DNA of 64,000 bases from Streptomyces sp. SID13031 (GTDB lineage Bacteria > Actinomycetota > Actinomycetes > Propionibacteriales > Kribbellaceae): assembly GCF_010548305.1 (NCBI RefSeq), contig NZ_JAAGLV010000021.1, positions 62,001-126,000 on the forward strand, in the 5' to 3' direction. This document shows, piece by piece, positions 4,238-57,291 of the stretch. A program made the position numbers and the translations under genes. Below the pieces are notes generated by a model, which was not told the DNA's origin, made no database searches, and saw only the letters and a list, made by a program, of their open reading frames with translations. Each line of letters opens with the position of its first letter. Positions within the stretch are counted from its first letter, which is position 1.

Positions 4238-5743
4238 ATGATCAGGATCGCGCTCTGCGCGGGCAGTTGGTACGACTGCCTGCTGGGTTGGGTCAAGGAA
4301 GCTCTCGGAACCGCCGTCGGAAAGTTGATCGAACTCGTGTTCCAGCCGATTCTCGACGCCCTGGCCGAAGCCGTGGCCAACATGTTCAGCACCATCGCGA
4401 CCTTCTGGGTCTACATCCCCACCCCGGCGGTGGGCAGCGAGGCCACCGGCGCCCCGGCCGGCGACACGGTCGGCTGGATCTGGACCCATACCCAGTACAT
4501 CGCCATCTTCGTCGCCGTCCTCGGCGTGATGGTGGCCGCGATCCAGATGGCGTTCACCCAGCGCGGCGAGAGCGCCCGCGACCTGCTCCGCTCGCTGATC
4601 ACCTTCGGGGTCGCGTCGGCGTTCAGCATCGCGATCGTCCAGGCGCTGGTCGCGTTCGGCGACCAGTTCGCGAACTGCATCGTCACCACGGCGGTGCGGG
4701 GCGCCAACGACTGGCAGTGCGTCGACCTCGACCAGAAACCGGCCGTGCTCGAGGCCGGCAACGGGTTCCGCGACACGATGAAGGGCGTGATGGGCTTCTC
4801 GGCCACGGCCGGCACGGTCGGTATCGGGCTGATGATCACGATCGGCATCCTGACCCTGCTCGCCTCGGTGATCCAGGTCGTGCTGATGGTGGTCCGCAGC
4901 GGGATGCTGATCCTGCTGCTGGGCGTCCTGCCGATCGCGGCGGCGGCGACCAACACCGAGATGGGCAAGGCCTGGCTCAAGCGGATCATCTCCTGGCTGC
5001 TGGCCTTCATCCTCTATAAACCGGTCGCCGCCCTGGTCTATGCGACGGCGATCATGCTGGCGTCCAACAACGGCCACGGGTTCAACTTCGACGACGTGCC
5101 GGACCCGGCCGGACGGCAGATCATGAACATGGTCGTCGGCGTCGTGATGCTGGTGCTCGCCCTGTTCGCGCTGCCCGCGCTGATGCGGTTCATCGCTCCG
5201 ATGGTCGCGGCGACGGCCGGCTCGGCCGGCGCCGGAATGATCGCGGCCAAGATGATCGGCGCGGACAAGATCGGCGAGAAGGTGAGCGACTCCACCAACA
5301 CCCAGGGCGATGGCCCGACCGGCTCGCGGAACGTCGGCCGGCCGAGTCAGCAGCCGTCGAGCCCGAGCGGGTCGCAGAATTCGGCACCTCAGCCCAGCGG
5401 CGGCGGTGGGGGTGGCGGCGGCGGCGGAGGTGGCGCTGGAGGTGGCGCCGGAGCCGGTGCTTCAGGTGGTGCGTCAGGCGGCGCGGCGGGCGGTGCGGCC
5501 GGGGGTGGTGCAGCGGCCGGTGGTGGCGCGGCCGCAGGTGGTGCTGCCGCGGGTGGTGGCGCCGCGGCAGGTGGTGCGGCCGCAGGTGCCGGCGCAGCGG
5601 CGGGTCCGGTCGGCATCGCGGTGGTCGCCACCGCGGCAGCCGTCAAGAAGGGCATCGACGTGACCAAGGACGCGGCCCAGGCGGGCGCGAGCGAGACGAT
5701 CGACAACGACTCGATGGATGAGGGACCAAGTGGCAGCGGCTGA
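4238..5743 (+). CDS. TrbL/VirB6-like polytopic membrane protein, copy 2, with Gly/Ala-rich tail
   Basis: The 501-residue protein starts one base after copy 1. Residues 1-330 repeat its fold: 'FTQRGESARDLLRSLIT' matches 'SQRGEPVRDILKSLIT', and 'NTEMGKAWLKRIISWL' matches 'NTEMGMMWFKRSIAWL'. From about residue 345 the protein changes character: a Ser/Pro/Gln linker, a poly-Gly run and then many GGAAAGG-type repeats up to about 450, before a short charged end. Long Gly/Ala tails on TrbL-like proteins are known in actinobacteria. The tail is probably cytoplasmic or disordered; its function is unknown. Confidence 0.7.
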   Translation: MIRIALCAGSWYDCLLGWVKEALGTAVGKLIELVFQPILDALAEAVANMFSTIATFWVYIPTPAVGSEATGAPAGDTVGWIWTHTQYIAIFVAVLGVMVAAIQMAFTQRGESARDLLRSLITFGVASAFSIAIVQALVAFGDQFANCIVTTAVRGANDWQCVDLDQKPAVLEAGNGFRDTMKGVMGFSATAGTVGIGLMITIGILTLLASVIQVVLMVVRSGMLILLLGVLPIAAAATNTEMGKAWLKRIISWLLAFILYKPVAALVYATAIMLASNNGHGFNFDDVPDPAGRQIMNMVVGVVMLVLALFALPALMRFIAPMVAATAGSAGAGMIAAKMIGADKIGEKVSDSTNTQGDGPTGSRNVGRPSQQPSSPSGSQNSAPQPSGGGGGGGGGGGGAGGGAGAGASGGASGGAAGGAAGGGAAAGGGAAAGGAAAGGGAAAGGAAAGAGAAAGPVGIAVVATAAAVKKGIDVTKDAAQAGASETIDNDSMDEGPSGSG

Positions 5744-50215: not shown

Positions 50216-50887
50216 TCACTGGAGCCAAAAGTTGTTGACCGCGGCAACCGAGTAGACCGTCTCGCAGGGAATGCCGTTCTGGTCGGCGTCCATCCGCAGT
50301 GGCATGGCGTAGTACCACCAGTAGGCCACGGCTTCAGCGTAGGTCGCCCCCCGGTCGGCGAGCTCCCGGCAGAGCAGATTCGACGTCAGTGGCGCGGCGC
50401 CGGCGACCTCACGCCCGTTCCAGTACTGGCCGATATCGCTGCGCGAATAGACCGTCTCGCACGGGATACCGTTGCGGTCGGCATCCATCTGGTTCGGCTG
50501 ACCGTGCAGCCGCCAGTAGTCGATCGCCGCCACGTAGCTGTACCCCTTGGTCTTCAGATCCCGGCAGAAGAGTCCCGTCGGGAGCGATCGGACGTCGCCG
50601 ATCGCCTTCGGCAAGGTTCGTACTGGCGCCGGCGCCGTCGTGGTGCCTTTGACCGACGGAGCCACGGTCAGCGTCTTCACCGTAACCGGTACGCCGGCCG
50701 ACTGCGGCGTCGACGCCGTCTCCTTGGCCGAGTCCTGCCTGCTCATCATGACGACGAGCCAGGCCAGCAGTACGACCACCACCCCGACCGCGACCCCTGC
50801 CAGGGCAGCCAGCGTCGCGTTCCCGCTGTCCTTGCCCAGGTGGGTGTTCTCGTGACTTTCCGTGACTGAATCCGGTTCTACGCTCAT
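50216..50887 (-). CDS. Membrane-anchored protein with duplicated excalibur-like domains
   Basis: The 223-residue protein has one membrane segment (about 25-47), a Thr/Pro linker and two tandem copies of a 45-residue module. Both contain a Cys-Arg-x-Leu start and a DADxNGIPCETVYS end, a variant of the excalibur DxDxDGxxCE calcium-binding motif. Paired cysteines likely form a disulfide in each module. It lies just upstream of the M23 peptidase gene on the same strand (18-base gap), suggesting a joint role at the cell wall. Confidence 0.8.
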   Translation of the reverse strand: MSVEPDSVTESHENTHLGKDSGNATLAALAGVAVGVVVVLLAWLVVMMSRQDSAKETASTPQSAGVPVTVKTLTVAPSVKGTTTAPAPVRTLPKAIGDVRSLPTGLFCRDLKTKGYSYVAAIDYWRLHGQPNQMDADRNGIPCETVYSRSDIGQYWNGREVAGAAPLTSNLLCRELADRGATYAEAVAYWWYYAMPLRMDADQNGIPCETVYSVAAVNNFWLQ

Positions 50888-51097
50888 GTTTCCCCCCGGG
50901 GCTCATTGAAGACCCGTCGCTCTGCGTTGTCTATGGCCTGGGGGTGGTCGTGGACGGCGAATAGTCAAATGCGACATCGTCGCAAAACAAGGGGTTCCGG
51001 GGCAAGGGGTGGGGGCTGGGGTTCATCCGGACAACATCTGGATGTCATTCGGAAAGGCGATGATCCCGCGGGATTCCGCCATCCGAGAGGAAACACG

Positions 51098-52879
51098 ATG
51101 GGACACACCCACGACCACACCGGCCACGGTCATGGTCACGATCACAGCCACGATCACAGCCATGAGCACGGGCAGGGACACGGTCATGGGCACGATCACG
51201 ACCATCACCACCCGAACACCGAGCTGGACGCGGCCACCACCGCGGCGCTGGACGAGTCGGTTCCGGACAGTGACCTCTCGCCGACCGAGCTGTCGCGCCG
51301 CGGGCTGCTGCGCTCGGCCGGGATCCTCGGTGGAGCAGCGGCGCTCGCCGTCTCCGGTGCGGAGTTCGCTGCCGCGACCTCGCCGACCTCGCACGTGTTC
51401 ACCTCCGGCGGCCGGCCGAACGTCTGGCTCGCGGGGGACCACCACATCCACACCCAGCTGAGCTCCGACGGTATGTACCGGGTGATCGACCAGGCGCAGC
51501 ACGCGGCCGCCAACGGTCTCGACTGGCTCGTCATCACCGACCACGGTGGCGCCACCCACGCCCGGATCGGCGTCGACCTGGTCAACCCGCAGATCAAGGC
51601 GGCTCGGGCAGAGCTGAAAGACACCCTGATCTTCCAGGGCCTGGAGTGGAACATCCCGGCGGCCGAGCACGGCACCGTCTTCGTCGCTCCGGGCAGCCGT
51701 GAGGTCGAAGTACTGAAGCAGTTCGAGAACAGCTACGACGGCAGCGTGAAGAACGCCGGTGCCAACACGCCGGTCAACGAGCAGCTCGCCGTCGACGGCA
51801 TCCAGTGGCTCGGCCAGCAGGTCGACCTCCGCCGGGTCTCGGACGCACTGTTCCTCGCGAACCACCCCGCCCGCAACGGCATCGACAGCCCGCACGAGAT
51901 CCGCAACTGGCGCGACGCGGACCCGCGGATCGCCGTCGGCTTCGAGGGCGCACCCGGTCACCAGGCCGGCGGCCTGCCCGCCGCGATCGGCGCCGGCGGG
52001 GCCCGCGGCCTTTACGGCAACGCCCCGAACGCGAACTCCTTCCCCGGGTACCCGGCCGAGTCGTACCGGACCTGGGGTGGCTTCGACTGGATGACCGCCA
52101 CTGTCGGCGGCCTGTGGGACAGCCTGCTCGCCGAGGGCAAGCCGTGGTGGATCAGCGCGAACTCCGACTCACACGTGAACTGGAACGAGACCGCCCGCCG
52201 ACCCGACGGCTCGGACCAGGCCCAGTTCGACCGAGACGGCCGCTACATGGACCCGGTCTACAGCGGCACGGTCAACCGCACTGCGGCTGACTTCTTCCCC
52301 GGCTACTACAGCCGCACGCACGTCGGCGCCGACAACCGCGACTACCGCGCGGTGATGGAAGGCCTGCGCAACGGCCGGGTCTGGGTCGACCACGGCGCGC
52401 TCGTCAAGGGCGTCGAGGTCGAGGTCCGCGAGGCCGGCAAGACTCGTGGCGAGCCGCTGGGCGGTGCCTTGCACGTACGCCGGGGTCGCGCGGTCGAGCT
52501 GGTCGTCCGGATCACCGCGCAGAACGTGCCGAACTGGTCCAACTTCGTGCCGTCGCTCAACCGCGTCGACGCGATCGTGGGTGCGGTGACGGGTGCGGTC
52601 AGCGACAAGGACACCTTCACGGCGCCCGACACCAAAGTCGTCCGGCAGTGGGACACCTCCGGCAAGCGCGGCATCTTCGAGCTGGTCCTGCCGCTGGGCA
52701 AGGCGGAGACCCCGTACTACGTGCGCGTACGTGGTACCGACGGCAACCGCAGCCAGCCGGGCTACCTCGGTGCAGCGATCGACCCTGCCGGTCCGAAGCT
52801 GGACGTGGTCGGCGACGCAGACCCGTGGGCCGACCTGTGGTTCTACACGAACCCGATCTGGGTGCTTCCGACCAAGTGA
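51098..52879 (+). CDS. Tat-exported PHP-domain phosphoesterase with His-rich leader
   Basis: The protein is 593 residues from ATG 51098 (GAGAGG upstream). Residues 2-37 are extraordinarily rich in His, Gly and Asp (about 17 His). A twin-arginine signal follows at about 66-93 (SRRGLLRSAGILGG). The mature protein has PHP metal motifs GDHHIHTQLSSDG, ITDHGG, LANHP and NSDSH. PHP enzymes hydrolyse phosphate esters with two or three metals. A His-rich segment before the Tat signal is unusual. The 210-base gap upstream has no gene. Confidence 0.87.
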   Translation: MGHTHDHTGHGHGHDHSHDHSHEHGQGHGHGHDHDHHHPNTELDAATTAALDESVPDSDLSPTELSRRGLLRSAGILGGAAALAVSGAEFAAATSPTSHVFTSGGRPNVWLAGDHHIHTQLSSDGMYRVIDQAQHAAANGLDWLVITDHGGATHARIGVDLVNPQIKAARAELKDTLIFQGLEWNIPAAEHGTVFVAPGSREVEVLKQFENSYDGSVKNAGANTPVNEQLAVDGIQWLGQQVDLRRVSDALFLANHPARNGIDSPHEIRNWRDADPRIAVGFEGAPGHQAGGLPAAIGAGGARGLYGNAPNANSFPGYPAESYRTWGGFDWMTATVGGLWDSLLAEGKPWWISANSDSHVNWNETARRPDGSDQAQFDRDGRYMDPVYSGTVNRTAADFFPGYYSRTHVGADNRDYRAVMEGLRNGRVWVDHGALVKGVEVEVREAGKTRGEPLGGALHVRRGRAVELVVRITAQNVPNWSNFVPSLNRVDAIVGAVTGAVSDKDTFTAPDTKVVRQWDTSGKRGIFELVLPLGKAETPYYVRVRGTDGNRSQPGYLGAAIDPAGPKLDVVGDADPWADLWFYTNPIWVLPTK

Positions 52880-53427
52880 TCATCGCCGTCGATGCGGACT
52901 CCGCAGACGCCGTGGAGGCAGAGCATGTCCTCCACGGCCTGCTGGAGTCCGCGACAGGCCCGGTAGTCGCCTGCACCCACGTGGTGCCAGGCGGCCACCT
53001 GGCTGTCTCCATCAGTACCTCGGCTGCCTTCGACCAGACAGCTCTGACCCAGGAGGTCGGCTCGGCCATCATCCGCGCGGGGGCGGCTGAGCCAGAGGTC
53101 GCAGGCCCGAGCCAACTCGTCCGCGGCGCCTACGTAGCCGCAGTAGAGACAGCACTCGGTACGGCGGGCCGCCTGGTCGCGTTCCCCGGTCAGGAGAACG
53201 CCCACGGCACCCTGACGGCAGCAGACCTGCGTGACCGCTGCGGTATCGACCAGGTAGAAGCACTGGGCGGCCTCACCGTCGAGGACTCCACCCTGATCGA
53301 CACCCGCGGCTTCATCCGCCCGATCCGCCGCAACGGCCAGGTAGTCCTCCTGGTCCAGCCGGCCGCCGGCGGCGTACTCATCCCCTTCGAGGTAGAACAC
53401 CAGATCAAGTGCTGCGCTAACCACTGA
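52876..53427 (+). CDS. Hypothetical protein coupled to the PHP gene
   Basis: The 183-residue protein starts at GTG 52876, overlapping the previous stop (GTGA). Beta-rich first half (IIAVDADSADAVEAEHVLHG, VACTHVVPGGHLAVSI) and Cys-Cys-x-x-His at the very end (IKCCANH). There is no membrane segment. Coupling suggests a function linked to the PHP protein, though it has no export signal. Family not recognised. Confidence 0.6.
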   Translation: MIIAVDADSADAVEAEHVLHGLLESATGPVVACTHVVPGGHLAVSISTSAAFDQTALTQEVGSAIIRAGAAEPEVAGPSQLVRGAYVAAVETALGTAGRLVAFPGQENAHGTLTAADLRDRCGIDQVEALGGLTVEDSTLIDTRGFIRPIRRNGQVVLLVQPAAGGVLIPFEVEHQIKCCANH

Positions 53428-53444: not shown

Positions 53445-55766
53445 TCAGGTGCGGACATCCCAGGAGTCCGAGCTCTGCAGGACTTCTGGGAGCGGGCCGA
53501 TGACGCCCAGGCGCTGGGTGCAGCGCGTCAGGGCGACGTACAGGTCGCGCAGGCCGCGAGGGGACTCGATCAGGATGCCGTCGGGGTCGACGACCAGGAC
53601 GGAGTCGAACTCGAGGCCCTTCGCGCCCGCCACGGTAAGCACGGTGATACCGGCAACGTCGCCGACTGCCTCCTGCACCAGCTCGAGCCGGTGCCGCGAG
53701 GTGATCACCCCGACCTGCCCGTGCTGCGTCTCCTCGTGTGCCACCTTGCTCACGTACGCCGCCTGCTCGGCCGCCGGGACGTCCAGGTGCCAGGGCTTGA
53801 CCCCAGTGGACCGCACTGACCGAGGGGCCTTGGCTGTCGGGTCGACCTCGCGCAGTACGTCCGCAGCGAGCTCCATCACCTCAGCCGGTGTCCGGTAGTT
53901 CAGCGTCAGCTCCGCCAGCCGCCAGCGGTCCCCGAACGTCGGTGCCAGCGCTTGCTGCCAGCTAGTACTGCCGCCGGCAGCACCCGTCTGGGCGACGTCG
54001 CCGACCAGCGTCATCGAGCGCAACGGACAGCGCCGCGCGATCGCGCGCCACGCCATCGGCGACAACTCCTGCGCCTCGTCCACGATCACGTGCCCGTACG
54101 TCCACCGCCGGTCGACCGAGGCGCGCTCGGCCAGCGTGCGATCGTCATCGGCCTCATATCTCGCCGCGAAGGCTTCCGCATCGAGGATGTCCTTCGCCGA
54201 CAACACCTCCGCCTCGTCGTCCTCGTCGAAGTCGGTCGACCCTGATCCGGACAGCACGTCCAGCGAGCCCTGCGCATACGCGATCGCCCGCGCGCGTTCG
54301 GCCCGTTCGCGAGCCAGGTCGCGCCCGTCGTCACCGAGCAGCTCAGCGGCTTCATCGAGCAGCGGTACGTCGGCGGGGCTCCAGTCATCGCCGTACCGGA
54401 GCAGGTGCTCGCGGTCGAGCGCACTGAGCTGCGGCGCCGCCGACGCGAGTCGCTGCTCATCGCCGTACAGGTCGATCAGTAGTTGTTGCGGGCTGAGCAC
54501 CGGCCAAAGCTTCACCAGCAACGCCTGTACTTCGGGGTCCGCGACGACCTCCTTGCGCAACTCCTCCAGGTCGTACTCGTCCAGCAGGTTCTCCCCACCG
54601 AGCGGGTCCTCGCCGATGATGTCGGCGTACTGCGTTGTGAGCAGGTCGATCGTCTCGTTGGCGAAGAACGGCTGGGCCTGGTTGTGCGTCAGTTGCCGGG
54701 CGCGCGCCTTGGCCCGGGTCTCCTCGACCACGGACGGTTCCAGCCGTAGTACGGTCCGGTCGATCGTCAGCTCGATCGGTTGGCCGGGCACCCATTGACG
54801 GTCGGCGACCGCGGTCTTGATCACCTCGGCCATCACCGCACGGCCCTTGACCTCGGCCACCTCGGCGGGCTCCGGCCGGGTCGCGGTCAGGCCCGGGTAC
54901 AGCTCGGCGACGGTGACCAGGCGGACGCCGTCCTCGCCGAGCGACGGTAGTACCTGGCCGATGAACTTCAGGAACGTCGAATTAGGGCCGACGACCAGAA
55001 TTCCGCGCTTTTCCAGTTGACTGCGATGTGTATACAAAAGGAAAGCGGCCCGGTGCAGCGCGATTGCGGTCTTCCCGGTGCCCGGTCCGCCCTGGACGAC
55101 GAGCACACCGGCCAGCTCGGAACGGATGATCCGGTCCTGGTCGGCCTGGATCGTCCGCACGATCGACTCCATCGTGCCGGTCCGCCGGGCGTCGAGCGCG
55201 CTGAGCAGGACCGCCTCGCCGACCACACCGGTACCGGGCTGGGACGCGCCGTCCGCGGTCCGGTCCAGGTCGAGCTGCTCGTCCTGGACGTCGACCACCT
55301 GACGCAACCTGGTCTGGATGTGCCGGCGGCGGACGACGCCCTCGTTCACCACCGCTGTGGCGATGTAGAACGGCCGCGCGGCAGGCGCGCGCCAGTCGAC
55401 CAGCAACGGTTCGTAGTCCTCGTCGTGCAACCCGATCCGCCCGATGTGCAGGACGCCACCGTCCTCGTCGTCGAGCCGGCCGAACGCGAGACCCTCCTCG
55501 GCCGCGTTCAGCCGGGACAGCCTGGCGTTCAGGTCCCGGACCCGGCCGTCGCGCTGGTGCAAGGCTTGCGCGTTCTTGGTGCCGGCCACCTGCTCGTCTT
55601 GCCGGCGACCCTCCGTACGTTCGCGCTCACGGTCGAGCGTTGCGTAGAAAGCCGTCAGGTAAACCTGTTCAGCCTGGACCGGATTCAGCAATTCCAACCC
55701 CTCGTGATAAACTGCACCTCGTTGGTTCCCAGGGCCGATTTCGGCAATTTCTCTGGTAGCAGCCAC
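53445..55766 (-). CDS. HelD/HelR-like RNA-polymerase-recycling ATPase (UvrD-like)
   Basis: The 773-residue protein has an N-terminal coiled coil (about 30-90), the HelD core start GRIGLHDEDYEPLLVDWRAP, Walker A GGPGTGKT, Walker B VIVDEAQELSP, and superfamily 1 motifs (LTLNYRTP; VAGAKGLEFD; LYVALTRCTQ). This is the HelD/HelR architecture, which rescues stalled or rifampin-bound RNA polymerase. I looked for a rifamycin-associated element in the 64-base upstream gap and did not see one. It is divergent from the M4 peptidase gene. Confidence 0.9.
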   Translation of the reverse strand: MAATREIAEIGPGNQRGAVYHEGLELLNPVQAEQVYLTAFYATLDRERERTEGRRQDEQVAGTKNAQALHQRDGRVRDLNARLSRLNAAEEGLAFGRLDDEDGGVLHIGRIGLHDEDYEPLLVDWRAPAARPFYIATAVVNEGVVRRRHIQTRLRQVVDVQDEQLDLDRTADGASQPGTGVVGEAVLLSALDARRTGTMESIVRTIQADQDRIIRSELAGVLVVQGGPGTGKTAIALHRAAFLLYTHRSQLEKRGILVVGPNSTFLKFIGQVLPSLGEDGVRLVTVAELYPGLTATRPEPAEVAEVKGRAVMAEVIKTAVADRQWVPGQPIELTIDRTVLRLEPSVVEETRAKARARQLTHNQAQPFFANETIDLLTTQYADIIGEDPLGGENLLDEYDLEELRKEVVADPEVQALLVKLWPVLSPQQLLIDLYGDEQRLASAAPQLSALDREHLLRYGDDWSPADVPLLDEAAELLGDDGRDLARERAERARAIAYAQGSLDVLSGSGSTDFDEDDEAEVLSAKDILDAEAFAARYEADDDRTLAERASVDRRWTYGHVIVDEAQELSPMAWRAIARRCPLRSMTLVGDVAQTGAAGGSTSWQQALAPTFGDRWRLAELTLNYRTPAEVMELAADVLREVDPTAKAPRSVRSTGVKPWHLDVPAAEQAAYVSKVAHEETQHGQVGVITSRHRLELVQEAVGDVAGITVLTVAGAKGLEFDSVLVVDPDGILIESPRGLRDLYVALTRCTQRLGVIGPLPEVLQSSDSWDVRT

Positions 55767-55830: not shown

Positions 55831-57291
55831 ATGACGGTCCACCACATCGTCCCGCCGTACCTGCTCGAACACCTCGAGCGCACCGCGGACGACCCGAATC
55901 TGCGCGCTCGCTACCGCCAGTCGCTGCAGCACGACGCCGTACTCCGGAGCCGCCCCGCCGCTTTCGGGCAAGGCTCTGCCCAGCTTGAAGGCAGCGAGGC
56001 CGGAGCGCGACGGGTCGTCCACGATGCGGAGAACGGCACCTGCCTGCCAGGGACTCCGGCCAGGCGCGAAGGCGACCCGGCCGTCGCGGACGAGACCGTC
56101 AACCGGGCCTACGACGGCACCGGCGCGACCTGGACGATGTTCAAGGAATGCTTCGGCCGCGACTCGGTCGACGGCGCCGGACTGCCGCTGAACTCGACGG
56201 TGCACTTCGACCGTGGCTACGCGAACGCCTTCTGGGACGGCGCGCAGATGGTGTTCGGCGACGGGGACGGCGAGATCTTCGGCGACTTCACCCGCTCGAT
56301 CGACGTCACCGGCCACGAGTTGACGCATGGCGTCACGCAGTACACGGCCGGGCTTGTCTACGAAGGCCAGTCGGGCGCGCTCAACGAGAGCCTCTCCGAT
56401 GTCTTCGGCTCACTCGCGAAGCAGCACCACCTGGGCCAGTCCGCCGCCGAAGCCGACTGGCTGATCGGCGCCGAACTCTTCCGCCCAGGCGTCGCAGGAG
56501 TAGCCCTCCGCTCGATGAAGGCCCCCGGTACGGCGTACGACGACCCCCGCCTCGGCCGCGACCCACAGCCGGCCCACATGTCCGGCTTCGTCGAAACCAC
56601 CGACGACAACGGGGGAGTCCACCTTAACTCCGGCATCCCCAACCACGCCTTCTACCTACTGGCCACAACCCTGGGCGGCAACGCCTATGAGAAGCCCGGC
56701 CAGATCTGGTACACCACCCTGACCTCAGGCACCCTCACCCCCACTACCACCTTCACCACCTTCGCCGAAGCAACTCACAGAACGGCCAGCACCATGTACG
56801 GCCCCACCTCCCCCGAAACAACCGCCGTAACCCAAGCCTGGCAATCAGTAGGCGTCCTCCTCCCCACCACCGCCGAGGTCAGCTCCACCGATGCCAGCCC
56901 TGCCGACGCCGGAACCACCGACACGGCGCGAACCACCGACGCCGAAACGACTGGTACCGAAACCACTGGTACCGAATCCGCCGGCACCGAAACGGCCGCT
57001 ACTGAAACCGTCGGTACCGAAACCGCCAGCACCGCCGACACAGGCGATGCCACCGACTCGTCGAGCGAGCGAAGCGAAGCGGAAGCCCCGCCCGGCCAAT
57101 CAGCCGAGTCGGTCGAGCTAATGCGTGCCGCCAACACCTCCCTGGCCCTCAACACCCCACCGGCCCCACCCGCAACCCCGCCTGCAGCAGCACCATCCGA
57201 GGCGCCCGCGACCCCGCCGACCTCCGCGACCCCGCCGACTCCGGCCGACTCATCGCCGACCCCGCCATCCGCACCCTCGCCGACCGACTAG
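55831..57291 (+). CDS. M4 family (protealysin-like) metallopeptidase with Thr/Glu and Pro-rich tail
   Basis: The 486-residue protein begins with the protealysin-type precursor motif PPYLL (8-12) and no signal peptide. Zinc motif HELTH at about 162, the third ligand in NESLSDVFG and catalytic His in NSGIPNHAFY complete a thermolysin-like site. After about residue 350 comes a low-complexity tail of TETxGTE-type repeats (about 370-410) and a Pro/Ala/Thr end. The peptidase part has normal length. The short propeptide suggests intracellular or non-Sec export. No neighbouring inhibitor gene was found. Confidence 0.88.
   Translation: MTVHHIVPPYLLEHLERTADDPNLRARYRQSLQHDAVLRSRPAAFGQGSAQLEGSEAGARRVVHDAENGTCLPGTPARREGDPAVADETVNRAYDGTGATWTMFKECFGRDSVDGAGLPLNSTVHFDRGYANAFWDGAQMVFGDGDGEIFGDFTRSIDVTGHELTHGVTQYTAGLVYEGQSGALNESLSDVFGSLAKQHHLGQSAAEADWLIGAELFRPGVAGVALRSMKAPGTAYDDPRLGRDPQPAHMSGFVETTDDNGGVHLNSGIPNHAFYLLATTLGGNAYEKPGQIWYTTLTSGTLTPTTTFTTFAEATHRTASTMYGPTSPETTAVTQAWQSVGVLLPTTAEVSSTDASPADAGTTDTARTTDAETTGTETTGTESAGTETAATETVGTETASTADTGDATDSSSERSEAEAPPGQSAESVELMRAANTSLALNTPPAPPATPPAAAPSEAPATPPTSATPPTPADSSPTPPSAPSPTD

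Follow-up and report, generated by a model that had tools for sequence, protein, structure and literature searches.

The PHP-domain protein encoded at positions 51098–52879 on the plus strand of the window (the whole stretch of 64,000 nucleotides that we analyzed) carries a histidine-rich leader ahead of its Tat signal, and the same leader recurs in orthologs from many actinomycete genera with its histidines apparently held by selection. We tentatively propose that the leader is a metal-binding extension of the Tat signal on the cytoplasmic side, which would load or check metal before export and would then be lost with the signal peptide, a reading that we regard as quite possible and somewhat short of probable. 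The gene runs from an ATG to a TGA stop and encodes 593 amino acids plus stop. Read from the ATG at 51098, the N-terminus is MGHTHDHTGHGHGHDHSHDHSHEHGQGHGHGHDHDHHHP. The leader comprises residues 1–38 (51098–51211, plus strand) with 18 His, as seen in the reading frame and in the orthologs, with a model confidence of about 30; its His density is 16 in 36 residues, 17 in 37 and 18 in 38. In all six frames of the window it is the most His-dense stretch of 37 residues (18 His), the runner-up being a stretch with 13 His on the minus strand at 5576. It is followed on the same strand by an acidic spacer (residues 39–66, PNTELDAATTAALDESVPDSDLSPTELS, 51212–51295), which is conserved in the alignments, by the Tat signal (residues 67–93, 51296–51376) with the twin-arginine motif in SRRGLLRSAG and a hydrophobic stretch, and then by the two enzyme domains, PHP and C-terminal beta. 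Residues 67–68, the twin arginines, are invariant in 22/22 members of alignment A1 and 32/32 members of alignment A2. The protein thus shows the pattern of a Tat substrate, in which a hydrophobic stretch and a cleavage site, both judged by eye here, follow the twin arginines; likewise by eye, cleavage of the signal peptide is expected near the AAA at residues 91–93. The segment N-terminal of a Tat motif faces the cytoplasm and is lost with the signal peptide. Since the leader precedes the Tat motif, it should by this topology lie on the cytoplasmic side and be removed together with the signal peptide.

A likely ribosome binding site (GAGAGGA, 51085–51091, plus strand) is located 6 nt before the ATG, and a motif resembling a ribosome binding site precedes the leader start in 30/30 orthologs of the genus and in 74 of 79 loci from the named genome collection described below. 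Among codons 2–99 of the gene there is no ATG, GTG or TTG. A start between the leader and the twin arginines is therefore impossible in this gene, and any start downstream of the leader would lose the twin arginines as well. From these features we regard the translation start at ATG 51098 as secure. A start downstream of the leader, which the first-pass annotation had named as the case against its own reading, is thereby excluded for any version that keeps the Tat motif, and the His-rich leader that it had described ahead of the twin-arginine motif proved to be real. We also noticed an atypical codon usage in the leader, given the high GC content of the gene. Third positions have a G+C fraction of 0.742 in the 30 leaders of the genus versus 0.878 for the Gly, Asp and His codons of the gene bodies. 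CAT makes up 99 of 430 His codons in the genus leaders and 22 of 452 in the bodies; in the named loci outside the genus its share is 12% in leaders versus 2% in bodies.

We searched for orthologs in the genus, covering the own genome plus 37 further ones (the search of the whole family yielded the same 38). The genus is probably Kribbella, as the leaders of several loci without a name are identical to leaders from named Kribbella loci. A match was found in 34 of these 38 genomes and a full-length ortholog in 30, the remaining matches being paralogs, fragments or weak hits. All 30 full-length orthologs start with MGH and have the leader in the same position, where 5 to 27 His precede the PN at its end. 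Because the MGH start and the His-rich leader are found at the same place in 30/30 orthologs, the leader goes beyond chance. Matches were present in 54 of 293 genomes drawn from the order (E 1e-30), 41 of 394 drawn from the class and 9 of 396 drawn from the phylum (both E 1e-60), where the three draws overlap and the counts include paralogs. Judged from these searches, the gene is patchily distributed among actinomycetes. The order and class matches were read out for the leader in part. Among the fetched loci 79 were taken and the start was located in 77, with L041 missed by the start pattern and L050 spanning just part of the protein. All 29 loci fetched by the class search (L052–L080) have the leader, with 7 to 15 His. 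In the named genome collection at least 546 relatives were confirmed, and the best 80 of these were taken for leader reading. Every one of the 79 readable loci among these best 80 of at least 546 has 4 or more His before the twin arginines (median 9, maximum 27); L104 is cut by a contig end and was left out of the 79, and for L123 the start was probably set too far upstream. This set covers the nearest relatives and says nothing on remoter ones, and the leader sets of the genus, the class search and the named collection overlap. The genera with the leader in their orthologs include Kribbella, Nocardioides, Jiangella, Streptomyces, Micromonospora, Actinoplanes, Dactylosporangium, Sphaerisporangium, Microbispora, Nonomuraea and Actinomadura. 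The design that the first-pass annotation had proposed to look for in homologs therefore does occur in orthologs of many actinomycete genera.

In order to assess whether the histidines themselves are maintained, we paired genus leaders that match in length and are at least 70% identical, and compared the codons of the 14 resulting pairs; the counts are not independent, as branches are shared among the pairs. At His codons we counted 52 silent changes versus 12 replacing ones (to or from His). For the residues between the histidines the same 14 pairs gave 59 silent versus 75 replacing changes. Nine single-base changes are possible per His codon, of which one is silent. A ratio of 52 to 12, with merely one in nine changes silent, argues that the histidines are kept by selection. 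The codon comparison thus indicates that the leader is under selection and that the His residues themselves are retained.

The enzyme part consists of two domains. A domain of PHP phosphoesterase fold spans approximately residues 108–435 (51419–52402, plus strand), as judged from the Pfam PHP family and from comparison of the model with 2anu and 3e38, and a C-terminal beta-sandwich spans approximately residues 433–593 (52394–52876, plus strand). Pfam PF02811 (PHP) was passed with 29.2 bits versus a cut-off of 26.4. The nearest NCBIfam family, NF038032 (CehA/McbA), matched residues 110–589 with an E-value of 1.1e-16 and 61.2 bits, which is under its cut-off of 80, and was matched by 32/32 members of alignment A2 at E 0.001 or better. 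An AlphaFold model built with 32 sequences reached a mean pLDDT of 73.7, with residues 1–43 below 50; the leader, with a model confidence of about 30, is read as disordered. The model aligned to 2anu with a Z-score of 16.6 (rmsd 2.7, 197 residues) and to 3e38 with 16.4 (rmsd 3.2, 221 residues), and further matches with Z-scores of 11 to 14 were endonuclease Q, PsfC and the PHP domains of DNA polymerases. Searching PDB sequences with alignment A2 gave two weak matches, 2anu (E 0.007) and 4gt2 (E 0.039, profile positions 4–72). The C-terminal domain resembles many beta-sandwiches at Z-scores below 8, a likeness that in the model appears to be only one of common arrangement. H116, H118, D124, H149, E183, H256, D357 and H359 are invariant in alignments A1 and A2; from PHP motifs we take this HxH, D, H, E, H, DxH set to be the ligands in this protein. 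The leader stands before the Tat signal of a PHP protein in which the His/Asp/Glu set of a putative metal site is intact in the alignments, in agreement with the first-pass annotation. Taken as a whole, that earlier reading is partly supported: the existence of the leader, the security of its start, its occurrence in orthologs and its position N-terminal of the Tat signal all bear it out, and the loading or sensing of metal that it suggested is a hypothesis. We take the protein to be a putatively exported and metal-dependent hydrolase of PHP fold, probably a phosphoesterase.

The same genome encodes a paralog, L002 (G000:C113:203954-205576), a Tat-type PHP protein that is 52% identical and begins MTEQQVPEWADPDVPEEALDPQGVSRRGLIRG. 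It has a Tat signal and no His before the twin arginines. L002 retains H116, H118, D124, H149, E183, H191, H256, D357 and H359; at putative metal-site positions D148 is replaced by Glu and H288 by Ser. As a leaderless protein that has both the putative ligands and a Tat signal, L002 shows that the leader is dispensable for the fold or for Tat export as such, and the idea that the leader serves general metal loading of the PHP fold is weakened by it. We built a tree of 69 proteins from an alignment that excluded the leader region. The leader proteins form a clade of 43 rows, each with at least 4 His. Next to it are 20 rows of paralogs (14 from the own genus, 6 from family f22) without any His; since L194 and L203 are the same protein these represent 19 distinct proteins, and L181 was not counted as a paralog. 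Six rows from families f2 and f36 form a side group with 1 to 4 His. When the leader is called at 3 or more His, two changes are needed on the tree. Position 288 is His in 40/40 proteins of the main leader clade and in 3/3 deep members, and Ser or Ala in 20/20 paralog rows and 6/6 rows of the side group. There is a hint here that the leader may go with a changed metal site at D148 and H288, a single event on the tree. By the same weak evidence, one tree event, the metal need of the paralogs may differ (D148 to Glu, H288 to Ser or Ala). Deep relatives with a His leader are L198, L199 and L202, one of them from outside the class according to the kinship assignment used. L198 and L202 join a His leader with the WADP motif of the leaderless paralogs, which hints that the leader may be ancestral and lost in the paralogs.

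Upstream of the gene, three units of 11 nt (GTTCATCCGGA, CAACATCTGGA and TGTCATTCGGA; 51021–51053, plus strand) form a PHO-box-like block that is conserved in the genus and is a predicted PhoP operator. These repeats had not been mentioned in the first-pass annotation. The unit at 51021 fits GTTCAYC exactly; the units at 51032 and 51043 are weak, with more than 2 mismatches each. With one good unit out of three, the predicted PHO box of this gene appears weaker than in the group. Just downstream, a genus-conserved GATGAT hexamer (51059–51064, plus strand) is a possible -10 element. Because a generic sigma-70 scan of 50850–53000 gave no site, we only infer this role. In an alignment of the 30 upstream regions from the genus, GTTCA, ACA and gTCA follow each other in a register of 11 nt and are followed by GATGATC and the ribosome binding site. 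The PHO box of S. coelicolor is described, in the available text of a review, as consisting of direct repeat units of 11 nt with the core GTTCACC (PMC4415409), and two GTTCACCC repeats are used in the same register according to the accessible part of a further report (PMC7244524).

We determined the spacing of unit pairs in 155 upstream regions (156 less L076), a redundant set in which some loci occur twice and five come from the side group with few His. Allowing at most 1 mismatch, pairs were found at spacing 11 in 20 regions and at spacing 22 in 22, and at any other spacing between 7 and 30 in no more than 5. With up to 2 mismatches the numbers were 78 and 73, other spacings giving 15 to 49, versus about 13 at each spacing in shuffled sequences; spacing 16 was likewise raised (49/155). 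In the controls for this redundant set, peaks at up to 2 mismatches occurred on the reverse strand (39 at spacing 30) and in coding sequence (45 at 29 and 54 at 14); at up to 1 mismatch the sole standout was the reverse strand at spacing 30 (9). Control peaks at other spacings are an effect of sequence relatedness, as related sequences will produce them. Owing to the redundancy and the control peaks, we base the repeat claim on 76 non-redundant regions outside the genus. Here up to 2 mismatches gave 36 regions with a pair at spacing 11, 29 at 22 and at most 16 elsewhere (7 to 30), and up to 1 mismatch gave 8, 9 and at most 3, respectively. Controls from the same 76 loci at spacings 11 and 22 gave 4 and 9 for the reverse strand, and 0 and 2 as well as 1 and 4 for coding stretches. 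A pair at 11 or 22 is present in 17 of the 76 regions with up to 1 mismatch and in 49 with up to 2. Within the genus, 17 of 30 regions have a pair at 11 and 25 of 30 a pair at 22 (up to 2 mismatches). The upstream regions of the 20 paralogs, which are few and related, contain no unit pair with up to 1 mismatch and have no peak particular to spacing 11; with up to 2 mismatches we counted 11 at spacing 9, 9 at 11, 9 at 13, 7 at 22 and 9 at 24. The pstS gene of the same genome has GTTCACCGCTC GTTCATCCGGG upstream, matching the PHO-box layout, and pstS is given as a PHO-box gene of S. coelicolor in the available portion of PMC7866108. In S. coelicolor several Tat-dependent proteins, including SCO1906, cluster with the phosphate-starvation response, as stated in the accessible text of PMC2267785. 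The upstream repeats suggest that the ortholog group is probably under PhoP in the phosphate-starvation regulon. In the conserved upstream block, viewed without a profile, no site for a metal regulator was recognised.

In the mechanism that we tentatively propose, phosphate limitation would lead PhoP to switch the gene on, as predicted from the promoter repeats. The disordered His/Asp/Gly tail, joined to the Tat signal by the conserved acidic spacer, would bind divalent metal in the cytoplasm and raise the local metal supply beside the folding PHP domain; it may also mark metal-filled molecules for export. Tat would then export the folded, metal-loaded enzyme, and signal peptidase would leave the tail, together with any metal still held, on the inner side. 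Since Tat exports folded protein, the PHP site should already contain its metals when export begins, and a dense (His-X)n tail in cis seems well suited to hold divalent metal near the folding domain. The wide variation in the number of His (4 to 27) speaks against a defined binding site. We infer that the tail binds metal and loads or checks it, that export depends on Tat, that the signal is cleaved and that PhoP controls the gene, and likewise the nature of the substrate and of the metal; in the open-access literature that we searched, we found no experiment on any member. In a bolder version, which we consider unlikely, the protein would be a Tat substrate with its own metallochaperone in cis, a His-rich extension of the signal peptide that fills or checks the metal site, licenses export and stays inside with its metal after cleavage. 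If true, such a self-chaperoned Tat substrate would join phosphate starvation and metal status within one polypeptide.

Several other explanations have to be weighed against metal loading or checking by the leader. The leader might be a polar low-complexity extension of the n-region that tunes or slows targeting or keeps the precursor soluble, with metal binding being incidental. The low model confidence of about 30, read as disorder, the drift in length and the conservation of the adjoining acidic spacer would agree with this, but for a spacer any polar residue would do, whereas the His are held and the residues between them are freer in the codon comparison; we judge this unlikely. About as unlikely in our view is that the leader binds metal as a cytoplasmic buffer or store and does not load the enzyme, the cleaved fragment returning its metal to the cell. 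The variable number of His suits a buffer better than a defined site, and the leaderless paralog keeps the same putative ligands. However, a store would not need a Tat substrate, and on the tree the leader goes with one ortholog clade of one enzyme. The own genome contains 14 places with the pattern start-X-H-X-H-X-H versus 26 for a reversed control pattern; in the 13 of these 14 that were read (first 90 residues, by eye; L177 excepted) no other Tat protein with a His leader was found, this gene alone having a Tat signal behind the pattern.

A leader acting as a metal (or pH) sensor that gates export, where the apo form blocks Tat recognition and the filled form permits it or the reverse, would have the same anatomy as our preferred explanation, with the conserved spacer linking leader and twin arginines, and SlyD provides an example of a metal-handling protein that can contact Tat signals, as far as the available text of the report goes (PMC11198818). 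The leaderless paralog is presumably exported too, which counts against a gate, and we regard this explanation as quite improbable. We give practically no weight to a misplaced start with an untranslated His segment, or to a chance repeat. An ATG or GTG does occur behind the last leader His and ahead of the twin arginines in 24 of 30 genus orthologs and 42 of 79 named ones, but codons 2–99 of this gene are free of starts, the motif resembling a ribosome binding site precedes the leader start in nearly all loci, and the frame and the His are kept in every genus and named ortholog read. For this gene we rejected a misplaced start on account of the missing ATG, GTG and TTG codons, and a chance low-complexity repeat on account of the conservation of the leader across orthologs and the selection on its His codons.

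Among known systems, CehA/McbA (NF038032) and the PHP phosphoesterases 2anu and 3e38 have the PHP fold in common with our protein, which like 3e38 contains a second domain, but its CehA/McbA score stays below the family cut-off. In the open-access literature searched we found no described CehA/McbA or PHP member whose Tat signal is preceded by a His-rich leader. The His stretches of HypB and of metal transporters serve as metal buffer or store. SlyD, whose C-terminal domain binds nickel, is a binding partner of Tat signal peptides according to the accessible part of the report (PMC11198818). Both SlyD and HypB have a cytoplasmic metal-binding stretch, which is predicted here, and SlyD, within the same limits of the source, contacts Tat signal peptides too; they are, however, separate proteins acting in trans, whereas here the Tat precursor itself carries the tail. 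For the manganese cupin MncA, Tat export of the pre-folded protein lets metal be trapped in the cytoplasm, which resembles the order of events proposed here, but its fold is different and the available text of the report mentions no His-rich leader (PMC4192464). In CutF/CutO, as outlined in the accessible portion of PMC9973294, metal-binding motifs of an exported protein match production to metal, and a Tat signal is present on CutO; in that system a distinct Sec protein works on translation together with a stem-loop, whereas here tail and enzyme are one protein. The Tat-exported phosphate-starvation proteins of S. coelicolor, in the available text of PMC2267785, are comparable through the PHO-box layout found here, and SCO1906, compared by description, would be no more than a candidate ortholog. 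A His-rich leader on a Tat signal was not described in the open-access literature covered (titles and openings of abstracts) and may be described elsewhere. Each part is known; for the combination, a Tat signal with a His-rich leader throughout a large ortholog group, we found no description, though one may well have escaped this search.

One known route by which exported metalloenzymes obtain the right metal is to fold in the cytoplasm and then leave through Tat. A cis-acting, disposable metal-binding leader, if true, would be a further route for exported enzymes. The leaderless paralog of the same fold in the same cell provides a natural control. If the gene belongs to the phosphate-starvation regulon, the enzyme would also be a phosphate-scavenging enzyme of soil actinomycetes that had so far gone unassigned.

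Directly downstream, a frame of 183 amino acids (52876–53427, plus strand) has a GTG start codon overlapping the stop of the PHP gene (GTGA). Pfam gave no match for it at E 1. In 23 of the 30 genus loci (one frame read) the PHP gene is followed by a similar frame with an IIAVDA-type start, and the 183-aa protein may be a translationally coupled partner. On the other side, the divergent neighbor (50216–50887, minus strand) contains Excalibur calcium-binding domains. Further downstream are a relative of the RNA polymerase recycling motor HelR/HelD (53445–55766, minus strand; NF041258, 703 bits, below the cut-off of 1100) and an M4 (thermolysin-type) metallopeptidase with a long tail rich in Thr, Glu and Ala (55831–57291, plus strand).
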